The notes beneath the pieces were generated by a model. That model searched no databases. It was given only the letters and a program-made list of their open reading frames with translations, and was not told the origin of the DNA. The position numbers and the translations under genes were made by a program. A stretch of DNA of 35,788 nucleotides from Candidatus Poribacteria bacterium (GTDB lineage Bacteria; Poribacteria; WGA-4E; WGA-3G), in assembly GCA_022822215.1 (NCBI GenBank), contig JAJECD010000236.1, forward strand, positions 1 to 35,788, in the 5' to 3' direction. This document shows, one piece after another, positions 29,674-35,788 of the stretch. Within the stretch, counting starts at the first letter, position 1. Each line of letters starts with the position of its first letter.

Positions 29674-30873
29674 ATGAAATTAACCTTTAAGTATCCTACG
29701 AAAACACAGGAAGAAACAGTGTTAGCGTGGCTTGACCATCTCTGCGAACTCCAGAACTCCGCACGCAATAACCGAAAGCATGCACACGAAGAAGAAGGTC
29801 GTTTTGTTTCGCGATATGACCAAGAGCAACTTTTGAAAGTTGCCCGTGAGAAATATGACGACTTTCGGGAAGTCCCTCAAGATTTTCAAGTTTCTATTCT
29901 CAAACGTGTTGATAAAGCATTTGATGCGTTCCGGAGACGGTGTAAAGAAGGTGCGGCGAAAAAAGGCTACCCTCGCTATAAAAAGCGTGTCCGTTCTTTG
30001 ACGTGGTGCTTGCGAAAGCACAAACTTAAAACCGGTGAACGAGTTCGTCAAAACCCGATCCGCGAAACAGGCTTTCGCCATAACCGCTTGAAAGTGCCGA
30101 AGTTGGGTGAAGTCAAGATACGGATGCACCGTCCGTTTGAAGGGGATCCGAAAGAAGTCACGCTCGTGAAAAAAGCAAGTGGCTGGTATGCTTATATTAC
30201 TTGTGAAATCCCCAACACTCCGAAAGTCGAACCGACGGATGCGATCGCTGTTGACGTTGGCACGACAAACTATCTGACGACTTCTGAAGGCGAAAAGGAA
30301 GATAACCCGCGTTGGTATCGCCAAGCAGAAGGATTGCTGCATAAACACAACCAGACGATGGCACGCCGAAAGAAAGGCTCTAAACGCTGGTATAAAGCGG
30401 GGCATGCCGTTGCGCTTCATCATGAACGAACTGCTAATAAACGCAAAGACTTCATTGGTAAACTCGTCTACAAACTTTTTCATCATTGCGAAAATAACGT
30501 GCTTATCACTGAAGACCTCAGCGTATCTAACATGGTTCAGAATAAGCACCTCAGCAAGAGCATTTCGGATGCGTCTTGGGGTAAATTTTTTGAATGGTGT
30601 GGGAACATAGCCGAAAGAGACGGTTTCCACTTCCATCAAGTTGCTCCCAAGAACACTTCGCAAACGTGCTCTGCTTGTGGTAAGAAATCGCCAAAGAAAC
30701 TCTCTTTAGCGATACGGACCTTTAATTGTAGTTTTTGTGGCACGGTTTTAGACCGAGACCACAATGCTGCGATAAACATACTCTTACGGGCGGCTTGCGC
30801 CCATCGTGGAGAGCGTTGGGTTACCACCCTCTATGAAACGAGAAACACAAACGAAGCACGGGACGCGGGCTGA
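29674..30873 (+). CDS. tnpB: RNA-guided endonuclease TnpB family protein
   Basis: AVDVGTTNYLTTSEG (RuvC I Asp), VLITEDLSVSNM (Glu), CSACGKK...FNCSFCGTVLDRDHNAAINIL (zinc finger plus RuvC III Asp). Full-length, no disruption. Confidence 0.95.
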   Translation: MKLTFKYPTKTQEETVLAWLDHLCELQNSARNNRKHAHEEEGRFVSRYDQEQLLKVAREKYDDFREVPQDFQVSILKRVDKAFDAFRRRCKEGAAKKGYPRYKKRVRSLTWCLRKHKLKTGERVRQNPIRETGFRHNRLKVPKLGEVKIRMHRPFEGDPKEVTLVKKASGWYAYITCEIPNTPKVEPTDAIAVDVGTTNYLTTSEGEKEDNPRWYRQAEGLLHKHNQTMARRKKGSKRWYKAGHAVALHHERTANKRKDFIGKLVYKLFHHCENNVLITEDLSVSNMVQNKHLSKSISDASWGKFFEWCGNIAERDGFHFHQVAPKNTSQTCSACGKKSPKKLSLAIRTFNCSFCGTVLDRDHNAAINILLRAACAHRGERWVTTLYETRNTNEARDAG

Positions 30874-30958: not shown

Positions 30959-31828
30959 ATGAGAGATTACTACGAGATCCTCGGTGTAGACCGAAGAGCG
31001 ACCCCAGAAGAAATTAAGAAAGCGTATCGCAAACTCGCAGTTCAGTATCATCCGGACAAAAATCCTGGTGACAAAGGGGCAGAAGAGAAATTCAAAGAAG
31101 CATCGAATGCCTATTCGGTACTCTCCGACCCAGAAAAGCGACGCGTCTATAACACACGCGGGCATGCTGGCGTGAATAACATGGGGTTTGAAGGCTATAC
31201 GACGATGGACGACATCTTCGCGAACCTGAACCTCGACGATATTTTTGGGCGCGGCGGGTTTGGTGGATTCGGTGGGTTCGGCGATGCCTTCGGCGATGCC
31301 TTTGGTCAACGGCGTACAACTGCGCCTACACGGGGACGCGACATCCGCATGAACATCAGTATCCCTTTCGGGGACGCAATATTGGGTAACAAGAAAGAGG
31401 TCACTGTCCGAGGAAAGCGGATCACCCTTACAATTCCACCCGGTATTGAGAACGGAAAAACCTTACGCATACGAGGTCAGGGCGAATCTCTTGGTATTGG
31501 CATGTCGGGTGATTTATTGGTAACGGTCTCTGTGCAGCCGCATCCGACATTGACCAGCGACGGCTTAGATTTGTTGACAGATGCAAAAATCTCTATGACG
31601 ACCGCAGCATTAGGGGGTTCGGTTCGTGTGAAAACGCTAACTGATGATGTGGATTTAAAGATCCCGCCGGGTGCGCAGCCTGGACAGCAATTACGTCTAC
31701 GTGGGCGGGGTGGAACGGATACCTCTGGACGGAAAGGGGATTTACGGGTGCGATTGGTTGTAGAGATACCGAAATCGTTGTCTCGCAAGCAGCGGAATTT
31801 GCTCAAGGAATTTGAGAAGACGCTGTGA
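30959..31828 (+). CDS. cbpA: DnaJ-type co-chaperone (CbpA-like, no zinc-finger domain)
   Basis: [39 protein letters not shown] domain, G/F-rich linker, DnaJ C-terminal domains with no CxxCxGxG repeats. ATG at 30959 preceded by gagaagga. Confidence 0.93.
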
Positions 31829-31930
31829 CAAATACAAACCAGCACCAAGCCAGTGTTATGTTTCTTTTAATTCAACGCCGCGTAGTATGTGATTCAGAGA
31901 TCCTACCAAAAGTAACAAAAAATAAGAACT

Positions 31931-32161
31931 ATGCCAACCCGACTTGAACTCATTCATAGTAATATAATGGAAGCAGAAGTTGATGCTATCGTGAACCCAA
32001 CAGACCTTGTTCTCAGTGGTGGGGGCGGTCTGGACCGGGTCATTCGTCAAGCTGCTGGTGAAGAGGTGGATCTGGCATGTGAGGGGATTCGCGAAAATTA
32101 TGGTGGTTGTCAAACCGGTATTGGATTTCGTTTGTTCTGCTTTCTCGGAGAAAAAAAGTAA
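31931..32161 (+). pseudogene. Truncated macro-domain (ADP-ribose-binding) protein
   Basis: LELIHSNIMEAEVDAIVNPTDLVLSGGGGLDRVIRQAAGEEVDLACEGIRENYGGCQTG is macro-domain N-terminal half; it then diverges into IGFRLFCFLGEKK*. Confidence 0.75.
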
Positions 32162-32386: not shown

Positions 32387-32749
32387 ATGGAACTGGAAGG
32401 TTATTTTGACTTCATTCAAGAAGGGGTCATCCGGATTAAAGGGAATCGCATTGACATCGAGATTGTATTAGAAGATTATCTGGAAGGCGCGAGTCCGGAA
32501 GAAATTCTGCTACGCTATCCAACCTTAAACCTTGAAAAAATACACGCAACTATCCTCTACTATCTGGCGAAAAAAGAGGAAGTGGAAGCATATCTTGAAC
32601 GGGTGAGGCAACTTGACGAGGAAGCGGAACAAGAACAACTACGGAATCCATCACCTTTCGTGGTTGAATTACGGGAACGTTTCGCAAAGGCTTCCCAAGA
32701 ATTGCTTGAGGCTGAAGGCAAACGTACCAGATCGGCAGATGTCTTATGA
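32387..32749 (+). CDS. DUF433 domain protein, putative antitoxin
   Basis: GVIRIKGNRIDIEIVLEDYLEGASPEEILLRYPTLNLEKIHATILYYLAKKEEVEAYL matches DUF433; ATGA overlap with the next gene. Confidence 0.85.
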   Translation: MELEGYFDFIQEGVIRIKGNRIDIEIVLEDYLEGASPEEILLRYPTLNLEKIHATILYYLAKKEEVEAYLERVRQLDEEAEQEQLRNPSPFVVELRERFAKASQELLEAEGKRTRSADVL

Positions 32750-33105
32750 GACCTCGATTTCTCCTTGATGAAAACATGGATCGAGCGATTCAGCGGCAGC
32801 TCCAACGATTGAGTCCAGAAATAGACGTGAAGTTGGTGGGAGATGCGCAAGTGCCGCCACGAGGAACGTCTGATCCAGACATTTTGATGTGGATAGAAGA
32901 CAATGATTATATTTTGGTTACCAGAAACCGTAAGACGATGCCAAAGCACTTTAAGGAGCATCTGGCTGCGGGCAGGCAAGTCCCAGGAGTACTTTGCATC
33001 CGAAAATCTGTAGCGATGACAGAGCTCATCAATGTGTTATATCTGATTTGGTATGCTTCCGATGCTGAGGAGTATCGCGATAGGTTGGTATTCATCCCGC
33101 TATAA
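32746..33105 (+). CDS. DUF5615 PIN-like protein, putative toxin
   Basis: FLLDENMDRAIQRQL...GTSDPDILMWIEDNDYILVTRNRKTMPKHFKEHLAAGRQVPGVLCIRK: PIN-like acidic motifs (LLDEN, D.DIL..., NR). Confidence 0.85.
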   Translation: MRPRFLLDENMDRAIQRQLQRLSPEIDVKLVGDAQVPPRGTSDPDILMWIEDNDYILVTRNRKTMPKHFKEHLAAGRQVPGVLCIRKSVAMTELINVLYLIWYASDAEEYRDRLVFIPL

Positions 33106-33239: not shown

Positions 33240-35558
33240 TTGTCGTATTGGTTGGAAGCGGATAATAATCTCCGCCGCAATGTGGAATATACGAGAAACC
33301 AATTGAAAAAGACTAAGATTTTTCATTCATTCGCCGAGTGTAATAAAGAGGTTCAACGTCTAAAACTTTTGCAAAAGCAGCATCCGCTTTGTCCTGAAGC
33401 TATACCGCTGGAACTGGCTGACTTAGATCAGTGGATAGTTTGGTCTTACGAAGTTTGTCGGTGGCAAAATGGGATGTTCGGTGTCGGTAAAGTTCCTTAT
33501 CAAGCCAGGAATCCCAATGAAAAAGCATCGAGAACTACGTCATTGGATTGGTGTGACTTGGAAACAGCTGTACAGTGTGTGAAAAATAATCAGTATCATG
33601 TTGATGGTATCGGCTTCGTTTTTTCGCGCGAAGACGGTCTCAGTGGTGTTGATTTTGATAACTGTCGTGACCCTTTAACAGGACACATCCGTAAAGAATA
33701 CCAATTTTGGATTGACGCACTCGGCGGATACGCTGAAGTTAGTCCTTCGCGTACTGGTGTAAAGGCTTGGGTGAAAGGAACTGTATCCGATAGATATTTT
33801 AAAACTGAAAAATCAACAGGATTCAGAATTCTGAATTTCGCGGGTGGTGAAATAGAAGTCTATCGGCGAGGCCAATACTTCACAGTTACAACGCAACGCT
33901 TAAAAGACGCGTGGTGGCTTGCTCCAGCTCAGACGGAATTGGATGTTCTCAGCGAATGGTCCCTGTCAAAGGTTAGCAGAGATATATCATACTACTTCTC
34001 GTCAGCACTCTTGTCTATGCAAGAAACTATGATAAGTGAGTTATCTTTGCCCGGACCTACGGATGAAGATGCGAAGCGCGAGTTGTCCTTGTTGCAGAAG
34101 TATTGGGATGAAATAAGTTATGGATATATTGATGAATCATCAATAACACAAGGAGTGGTAGAGATGCCCACTGATTTTGATCTATATCCTATTGGAGATG
34201 TATCTTATGTTAACATTGGTCAGTCTCGATGCCACCGATGCGGTAGGAAGTGTGAACCACAATATGAATTATGTAGTGATTGCTATAGGGACGGGGAACC
34301 TGAGTATAAGGTAAAGGAGGCAGTTTTTAACTATTTCTCCAAACCCAAATTTCAGAAAGATGGTTTTTTTCCAAAGTATGAACATAAGATTCGTATTGGG
34401 ACTTATACACCTCGCCCCGATGTCGTTCTTTTTGATCAACAAGGAAATTTGGCGGCTATTGCAGAGTGCAAACGGAGTGGAGTCACAAATTATGGAATTA
34501 AACAGTTAAAATCTTATCTCACCATGAGCGATGCGCAATTTGGGGTATTTGCTAATAGTACTGAACCGGATAAATGGATCTATTTTGAGAATTTGCGTAG
34601 ATATAATTTTAAACAAGATGTATCACGTTCTCAATTTGAAACAGAGATTGTTACAGATCGATCAATAGAGTCCATTCGTGAAGAGAAAGCCAGACTCGTT
34701 AGAGAAACCGAACAAGCAAATATCCAACTAACGAAAGAAGTTTGTTCGTTAAGTGTTAAGAAAGATCAATTGCAAAATGAGATGACAACACAGAAGCAAC
34801 AGCATATACTCCTAAAGCAACAATGTATGCGTCTATTACAAAAAATAAGTTTCTTAGAGCGAGACAAGGACAGGCTTGAGAAAAATCGAAATAAAATCAA
34901 GCTTGAGCGAAAAGTCCAGCGAGAAGCACTAAAAAAAATAAGTTCTGATTTAGATGGGCGTATTAAGCATAAAACCTCCCTAATTCAAGAACTTGAATCA
35001 AAATTGGGCGAACTAGAAGTAACATTTGCCCAAAAACCTATTTATGGAGAAATTGAAAAAGAACTTAAACGATTAAATGAACTGGAATCAGAAATCACGC
35101 GGAAGCAACAAGCAGTTGGAAGATATAAGGAAAAGTATGCTGCTTATGAAAAAAATAAAGTAGAAATCAATCAAAAAATACAACGACTCGTCCAAGTTTC
35201 GGAAAAAAGGGAATCTATTCTCAAGCAACTTAGGGTAGTAGTTAATCGATTAAAAACAACGAACCTTGAACAAGAGGCACAAATTGAAAGGCATCGGGAA
35301 CAATTAGTACAAGATTTGCGAAAGCAAGGATCTATTTCCACTCAACTTACGGCAGAAATCAACCAGTTAAAAGAAACGCAATCTAGATTGGAAACGGAAA
35401 TTATGGAAAAGACACAGCAATCCCCGGACGAGGAAAAAGAAATGCGTCCTGCTTATATACAGATTCAGGTACAAATTGATAAACTGGAAGCAGAAAAATC
35501 TAAACTTGAATCAGAAATTGGGCATCGAATTTTTATGCTTCAACTTCAGAAAGATTGA
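33240..35558 (+). CDS. Multidomain protein: primase-polymerase-like N-terminus + zinc ribbon + PD-(D/E)xK (HsdR_N-like) nuclease + long coiled coil
   Basis: QWIVWSYEVCRWQNGMFGVGKVPYQ...GIGFVFSREDGLSGVDFDNCRDPLTGHI...GGYAEVSPSRTGVKAWVKG (primase-polymerase-like); CHRCGRKCEPQYELCSDC; RPDVVLFDQQGNLAAIAECKRSGVTNYGIKQLKSYL (D...ExK, QxxxY); residues ~475-772 heptad-like. Start is TTG 33240 or GTG ~33282. Confidence 0.8.
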   Translation: MSYWLEADNNLRRNVEYTRNQLKKTKIFHSFAECNKEVQRLKLLQKQHPLCPEAIPLELADLDQWIVWSYEVCRWQNGMFGVGKVPYQARNPNEKASRTTSLDWCDLETAVQCVKNNQYHVDGIGFVFSREDGLSGVDFDNCRDPLTGHIRKEYQFWIDALGGYAEVSPSRTGVKAWVKGTVSDRYFKTEKSTGFRILNFAGGEIEVYRRGQYFTVTTQRLKDAWWLAPAQTELDVLSEWSLSKVSRDISYYFSSALLSMQETMISELSLPGPTDEDAKRELSLLQKYWDEISYGYIDESSITQGVVEMPTDFDLYPIGDVSYVNIGQSRCHRCGRKCEPQYELCSDCYRDGEPEYKVKEAVFNYFSKPKFQKDGFFPKYEHKIRIGTYTPRPDVVLFDQQGNLAAIAECKRSGVTNYGIKQLKSYLTMSDAQFGVFANSTEPDKWIYFENLRRYNFKQDVSRSQFETEIVTDRSIESIREEKARLVRETEQANIQLTKEVCSLSVKKDQLQNEMTTQKQQHILLKQQCMRLLQKISFLERDKDRLEKNRNKIKLERKVQREALKKISSDLDGRIKHKTSLIQELESKLGELEVTFAQKPIYGEIEKELKRLNELESEITRKQQAVGRYKEKYAAYEKNKVEINQKIQRLVQVSEKRESILKQLRVVVNRLKTTNLEQEAQIERHREQLVQDLRKQGSISTQLTAEINQLKETQSRLETEIMEKTQQSPDEEKEMRPAYIQIQVQIDKLEAEKSKLESEIGHRIFMLQLQKD

Positions 35559-35763: not shown

Positions 35764-35788
35764 ATGATCTCATTATCACAACGGAGTC
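35764..35788 (+). CDS. Start of a gene cut by the window end
   Basis: aaggagagcaa-ATG: strong Shine-Dalgarno followed by MISLSQRS..., open to the window end. Confidence 0.5.

Follow-up and report, generated by a model that had tools for sequence, protein, structure and literature searches.

A primase-polymerase-like domain joined to a PD-(D/E)xK nuclease and a coiled coil in Poribacteria: probably a modular defence nuclease of the variable dnaJ-aspC slot

The locus and the fusion gene

The DNA considered here, referred to as the window, is the whole of a 35,788-nucleotide contig from the genome (G000) of a sponge-symbiont bacterium of the phylum Poribacteria. Of the genomes searched, 37 belong to the same genus; all genomes used are metagenome-assembled or of unknown origin, and each species is represented by one genome. 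The relevant part of the window carries, in this order, asd, a gene of the MTR kinase/APH family, a TnpB-like gene, dnaJ, a macrodomain remnant, a DUF433-DUF5615 pair, the fusion gene that is the subject of this work and the start of aspC. The interval between the dnaJ family gene (30962-31828, + strand) and the aminotransferase gene aspC is called the slot below. Only the first codons of aspC (MISLSQRS; 35764-35788, +) fall in the window, and the remainder of the gene opens contig C337 of the same genome. Within the slot, the macrodomain remnant of 81 aa (31916-32158, +; 43 of the 118 profile columns) lies upstream of the DUF433 gene (32387-32749, +) and of the DUF5615/PIN-like gene (32746-33105, +), the two halves of the pair. 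The gene between the MTR kinase gene and dnaJ (29674-30873, +) is a TnpB/Cas12f-like IS605 OrfB gene.

The fusion gene (33240-35558, +) encodes 772 aa from a TTG start, and this open reading frame, with its coordinates and length, was confirmed to be real. The TTG at 33303 is a plausible alternative start and may be the true one, as suggested by the G064 homologue, the frame of which opens at residues aligned with QLKKTKIF. From the N- to the C-terminus, the product comprises an NrS-1-type primase-polymerase (AEP) domain (residues about 53-246; 33396-33977, +), a variable linker in which a helix-bundle domain was not detected (residues 247-319; 33978-34196, +), a CxxC...CxxC ribbon (34230-34283, +), an HSDR_N-type PD-(D/E)xK nuclease domain (residues 353-475; 34296-34664, +) and a coiled coil of about 297 residues (476-772; 34665-35555, +). 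An earlier note, made from the sequence alone, had proposed four modules in one 772-aa open reading frame, and all four were right; like that note, the present analysis found neither helicase nor methyltransferase in the protein.

The AEP domain

The assignment of the N-terminal block to the NrS-1-type or AEP-like domains, already made in the earlier note, is borne out by sequence and structure searches alike. Against the PDB, phmmer aligned residues 64-246 with NrS-1 primase chains (7rr3, 6a9w, 6k9a and 7rr4; E 2e-10), and in PHROG the block matched DNA-primase families (E 6e-29 and 5e-24). The AlphaFold2 (AF2) model of the domain, which like all models used here is of a single domain without DNA or partner chains, has a mean pLDDT of 92.5; in the Foldseek comparison with PrimPol structures that the same note had suggested, it matched the NrS-1 N300 structures, six entries in total (E 1e-13 to 2e-14, prob 1.00, TMq about 0.57-0.60).

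Among the residues that match the family are D138 and D140 (DxD), S168 (SPS loop), E206 (the motif III acidic residue) and Y213; the metal ligands of the AEP and its dNTP-binding loop are thereby retained. In NrS-1, the SPS-loop S108 and Y146 matter for catalysis, and G111 is a key residue (PMC8718748). The fusion differs from NrS-1 in having R171 for G111, K175 for H115 and Q212 for R145, the numbering of H115 and R145 being that of our phmmer alignment; K175 thus stands where an NrS-1-like PrimPol has the motif II His, and most homologues keep Gly at the position of R171. K175 and Q212 are no proof of inactivity, since Lys and Gln are also present at these positions in relatives that possess a helix bundle and a helicase, such as L017.

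The helix-bundle domain (HBD) itself is absent from the fusion protein: a profile built from nine relatives gave -0.9 bits, compared with 82-96 bits for three held-out controls. No helicase was found by Pfam. In NrS-1, mutations of the helix bundle abolish priming while primer extension is retained (PMC8718748). A replicative primase is therefore unlikely, the protein being without the helix bundle needed for priming and without any helicase, and a functional primase, considered as a candidate, is disfavoured by the missing bundle. As far as can be judged from sequence, priming by this AEP is unlikely, while binding of a nucleotide or primer-template, or extension, is possible.

The ribbon, the nuclease and the coiled coil

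The ribbon consists of two CxxC pairs, C331/C334 and C345/C348, as the earlier note had described, and in Pfam it gave only a sub-threshold match to DZR_2 (double zinc ribbon). The nuclease domain matched PF13588 (HSDR_N_2) with 31.2 bits, above the curated cut-off of 25, and its catalytic residues D394, E409 and K411 do not vary among 20 relatives. In the AF2 model (pLDDT 87.7) the core follows the order helix, three strands, helix, strand, and Foldseek matched it to proteins of the restriction-endonuclease fold, including HsdR (3h1t), NucS/EndoMS (up to 28% identity), DUF820 and Card1/Can2. Profile match, motif residues, topology and structural neighbours all agree with the HsdR_N-type PD-(D/E)xK fold proposed before, and the active site of the nuclease is intact in sequence and model.

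Residues 476-772 show a strong 3.5-residue periodicity (p 0.0005 vs shuffles). SMC models matched the protein over this coil alone, with 27 bits vs a cut-off of 567; this fits the roughly 300 residues of SMC-like heptads seen previously, and since the similarity is confined to the coil, no ABC ATPase heads of the SMC or Rad50 kind were found.

Relatives and conservation of the fusion

Besides the window genome, the intact fusion is present in two other genera of Poribacteria, represented by G064 (OY282383.1; 727 aa) and G077 (JAJDWA010000023.1; a 901-aa frame), both with the same module order, no stops and an AEP domain 72% and 56% identical to that of the window, respectively. In G074 (JAJEBZ010000135.1) the AEP part lies at a contig edge, beside the dnaJ side of the slot. 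The recurrence in two other genomes puts the architecture far beyond chance. An assembly or recombination artefact was rejected, the same fusion with the same borders being found in G064, a 5.5-Mb chromosome assembly, and in G077.

In pairwise Nei-Gojobori comparisons, dN/dS of the AEP and the nuclease was 0.28 and 0.33, respectively, between G000 and G064, and 0.19 and 0.21 between G000 and G077, a pair whose synonymous sites are near saturation. These ratios place both domains under purifying selection. In the coil, the window protein shares 49% identity with G077 but only 25% with G064; the C-terminal part has thus been exchanged separately, the coil being nearer to G077 and the AEP nearer to G064.

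The scans for relatives were based on seed patterns and miss distant ones. Among 17 named AEP relatives from lineages other than Poribacteria, none has an HSDR_N-like region; most possess a helicase in addition to a helix bundle, and in some haloarchaeal ones the chain finishes with a coil. In the latter group, the AEP proteins L080, L084 and L085 combine a helix bundle with a coil at the C-terminus and have no helicase; close relatives of them, annotated as hypothetical, are frequent on plasmids of haloarchaea. When phages, plasmids and viral contigs were searched, only relatives of the AEP domain were obtained (about 27-37% identity, none spanning most of the query), and in the scan made no relative of the ribbon-nuclease module was found on viral contigs. 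The single-protein scan of viral contigs gave nothing that would make the fusion a phage or plasmid gene, and this candidate was discarded. In G035 (JAJDUH010000026.1), an AEP domain 65% identical to that of the window is in frame with WD40 repeats near a contig end (L021:14306-15466, +); this gene lies outside the slot, and the G035 slot itself holds an OB-nuclease-macrodomain gene.

The dnaJ-aspC slot

The order of dnaJ and aspC is kept across the family, while the gap between them ranges from 24 to 7212 bp (median 950; 45 contiguous genomes) and measures at most 121 bp in seven genomes. The control gap between the MTR kinase gene and dnaJ does not exceed 331 bp in 57 genomes, a list that leaves out the window genome, in which the TnpB insertion lies in that gap. 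Among the slots read, those of at least 22 genomes contain the nuclease module, alone or joined to varied partners. Some forms start with the ribbon (ribbon-nuclease alone, or ribbon-nuclease-coil-TM-HHH) and others contain an OB module (OB-ribbon-nuclease with or without a coil, OB-ribbon-nuclease-macrodomain, and nuclease-OB); the AEP-ribbon-nuclease-coil form, found in few genomes, is one more member of this series. On the tree of the nuclease domain 12 architecture changes are needed and HHH was joined at least twice, while the AEP fusions group together with moderate support (89/84). What stays constant is the cutter, and what is exchanged is mainly nucleic-acid-binding modules. An HHH form in the G005 slot (L057:1421-2746, -) encodes a nuclease, a coil, a predicted membrane segment, a second coil and HHH; on the tree, the nuclease domain lies near the one from G014.

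Other occupants of the slot are toxin-antitoxin (TA)-like DUF433-DUF5615, ParE-like and macrodomain genes, and further ones without a Pfam match that we take to be Rpn/PD-(D/E)xK-like. DUF433-DUF5615 and macrodomain genes are frequent slot-mates, and in several relatives the macrodomain is fused to the nuclease. In one slot only, that of G076, a pair belonging to the known anti-phage system PARIS was found (AriA 6e-36, AriB 2e-14); this PARIS-like pair of AriA and AriB/DUF4435 lies at L065:1222-3389 (+). With a slot of 24-7212 bp between conserved borders and PARIS in one genome, the dnaJ-aspC locus behaves as a defence hotspot. The nuclease-macrodomain gene of the G025 slot is split by two transposase-like genes that resemble IS630 by eye (L061:690-1837, -).

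The gene neighbourhoods of homologues, in which the earlier note had proposed to look for defence islands, show a variable slot that contains PARIS in one relative. No phage or plasmid genes were found near the fusion, the position of which is syntenic, apparently long-held and not that of a recently acquired mobile island. A DNA methylase gene follows aspC in G064 and G005 and is absent there in G000, where no methyltransferase adjoins the slot, and in G012 and G001; a restriction-modification pair was rejected on these grounds.

The module also occurs outside the slot. In G003, two such HSDR_N-type modules lie within a lineage-specific insert of the RNA polymerase beta subunit, which is 2269 aa long (L024:2705-9511, -); in this genus the beta subunit mostly measures about 1740-1820 aa, and only the G003 frame matched the whole queried stretch. 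Since it is also found in such odd places, the nuclease module need not be a defence effector everywhere.

Function and alternative explanations

The fusion is probably a modular DNA-targeting defence nuclease, because its slot swaps DNA-binding parts on the same cutter and because the slot of one relative holds PARIS. More specifically, we lean, at about even confidence, toward a variant of a Poribacteria-specific modular PD-(D/E)xK nuclease family residing in the dnaJ-aspC defence slot, with the AEP as a recognition module and the nuclease cutting the DNA so bound. In the most economical mechanism, the N-terminal module would direct the nuclease to a DNA structure or replication intermediate, and the coil would keep the protein oligomeric. 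The AEP would not prime but would bind a primer-template or a 3'-end/ssDNA junction, perhaps with a dNTP, exposed by replicating phage or plasmid DNA, a target that we infer by analogy with the architecture of the paralogues; the OB and HHH modules of the sister proteins would take the same binding role. The coiled coil would dimerise or bundle the chains, and the HSDR_N domain would then cut the bound DNA, so that the invader is limited or the infected cell killed. An anti-phage or anti-plasmid effect of the fusion is what we infer from this. The proposal of the earlier note, a single-protein DNA-sensing nuclease that is perhaps anti-phage or anti-plasmid, remains the best reading, now with the variable slot, PARIS and the sister modules beside it; a known defence family was rejected, since PADLOC 2.0.0 matched the window protein to no described anti-phage system, and gave the fusion and its nuclease relatives no match beyond coil-like similarity.

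The main rival is a house-keeping, structure-specific repair nuclease resembling NucS/EndoMS, with damaged or branched host DNA recognised through its AEP, OB or HHH module; NucS/EndoMS are structural neighbours of the nuclease and the borders of the locus are stable, and repair proteins often contain OB and HHH modules. A repair function would however be hard to match with the strong presence/absence variation (the near-empty slots of seven genomes, the AEP form in few) and with a slot that also gathers TA-like genes and PARIS, and we rate it as rather unlikely. Somewhat less likely still would be a polymerase-nuclease in which the AEP extends primers or adds nucleotides and the product gates or guides the nuclease. 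The retention of D138/D140, E206, S168 and Y213, the presence of K175 and Q212 also in helix-bundle/helicase relatives and the primer extension by HBD-inactive NrS-1 mutants (PMC8718748) are in its favour, but R171 replaces the key G111, where most homologues keep Gly, and no partner supplying primers is known.

A TA-like or regulatory nuclease, working with the DUF433-DUF5615 pair or the macrodomain protein and not against invading DNA, would account for the frequency of these slot-mates and for the macrodomain fusions; the same genes, however, are also found where there is no HSDR_N gene (e.g. G006, G018, G022, G028), so that the pairing is not obligatory, and we consider this reading improbable. 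Bacterial AEPs are found nearly exclusively on mobile elements, fused to helicases, PriCT, zinc-binding or HTH domains, according to the available text of PMC5862659, and the AEP relatives outside Poribacteria are mostly primase-helicases, which could suggest the remnant of a mobile-element replication protein captured by chance. The lack of a helix bundle, of a helicase and of phage or plasmid genes nearby, together with the conservation of the fusion under purifying selection in three genera, makes such a remnant very improbable.

The defence reading can be extended into a more speculative form, to which we give a low probability: the slot would be a combinatorial nuclease locus, in which one PD-(D/E)xK chassis receives swapped recognition modules (AEP, OB pairs, HHH) and C-terminal modules (coils, membrane coils, macrodomain), and in the AEP version cutting would be gated by the binding or extending of a replicating 3' end, a new way of sensing phage replication. 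The domains are known, but their combination, encoded at a locus where one nuclease takes on changing partners, is apparently unreported: no AEP-PD-(D/E)xK fusion was found in the literature searched, which included the available text of PMC5862659. If the defence reading is true, a replicative primase-polymerase domain has been turned into the recognition module of a nuclease, and the sister proteins form a natural series that differs only in the DNA-recognition part while the cutter stays constant. Moreover, bacterial sensing of replicating foreign DNA would become directly testable, and a defence hotspot would be at hand in an uncultivated phylum abundant in marine sponges.

Comparison with known systems

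With the primase-polymerase of phage NrS-1 (PDB 6a9w, 7rr3; PrimPol group of the AEP superfamily) the fusion shares the AEP fold, the DxD motif, the SPS loop, the motif III Glu and a Tyr at the position of Y146; it differs in lacking the helix bundle and the C-terminal helicase, in having Lys for the motif II His and in being joined to a nuclease and a coiled coil. CRISPR-associated primase-polymerases likewise tie a primase-polymerase to prokaryotic immunity, in their case to CRISPR adaptation, as described in the available text of PMC8211822; no such tie was seen for the fusion. The HSDR_N domain of HsdR (PF13588; PDB 3h1t) has the same PD-(D/E)xK core and motif residues, whereas the fusion is without translocase, HsdM and HsdS and its nuclease is a stand-alone module re-used with many partners; no translocase was found in the protein and no methyltransferase or specificity subunits nearby, which sets it apart from type I restriction-modification. 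PARIS (AriA/AriB) shares the dnaJ-aspC slot in G076, but its proteins are unrelated and the location alone is in common. The OB-fold (XseA-like tRNA_anti_2)-HSDR_N and HSDR_N-HHH proteins of the slot share with the fusion the nuclease module, the locus and mostly the CxxC ribbon, and differ in carrying OB or HHH DNA-binding modules where the fusion has its AEP.
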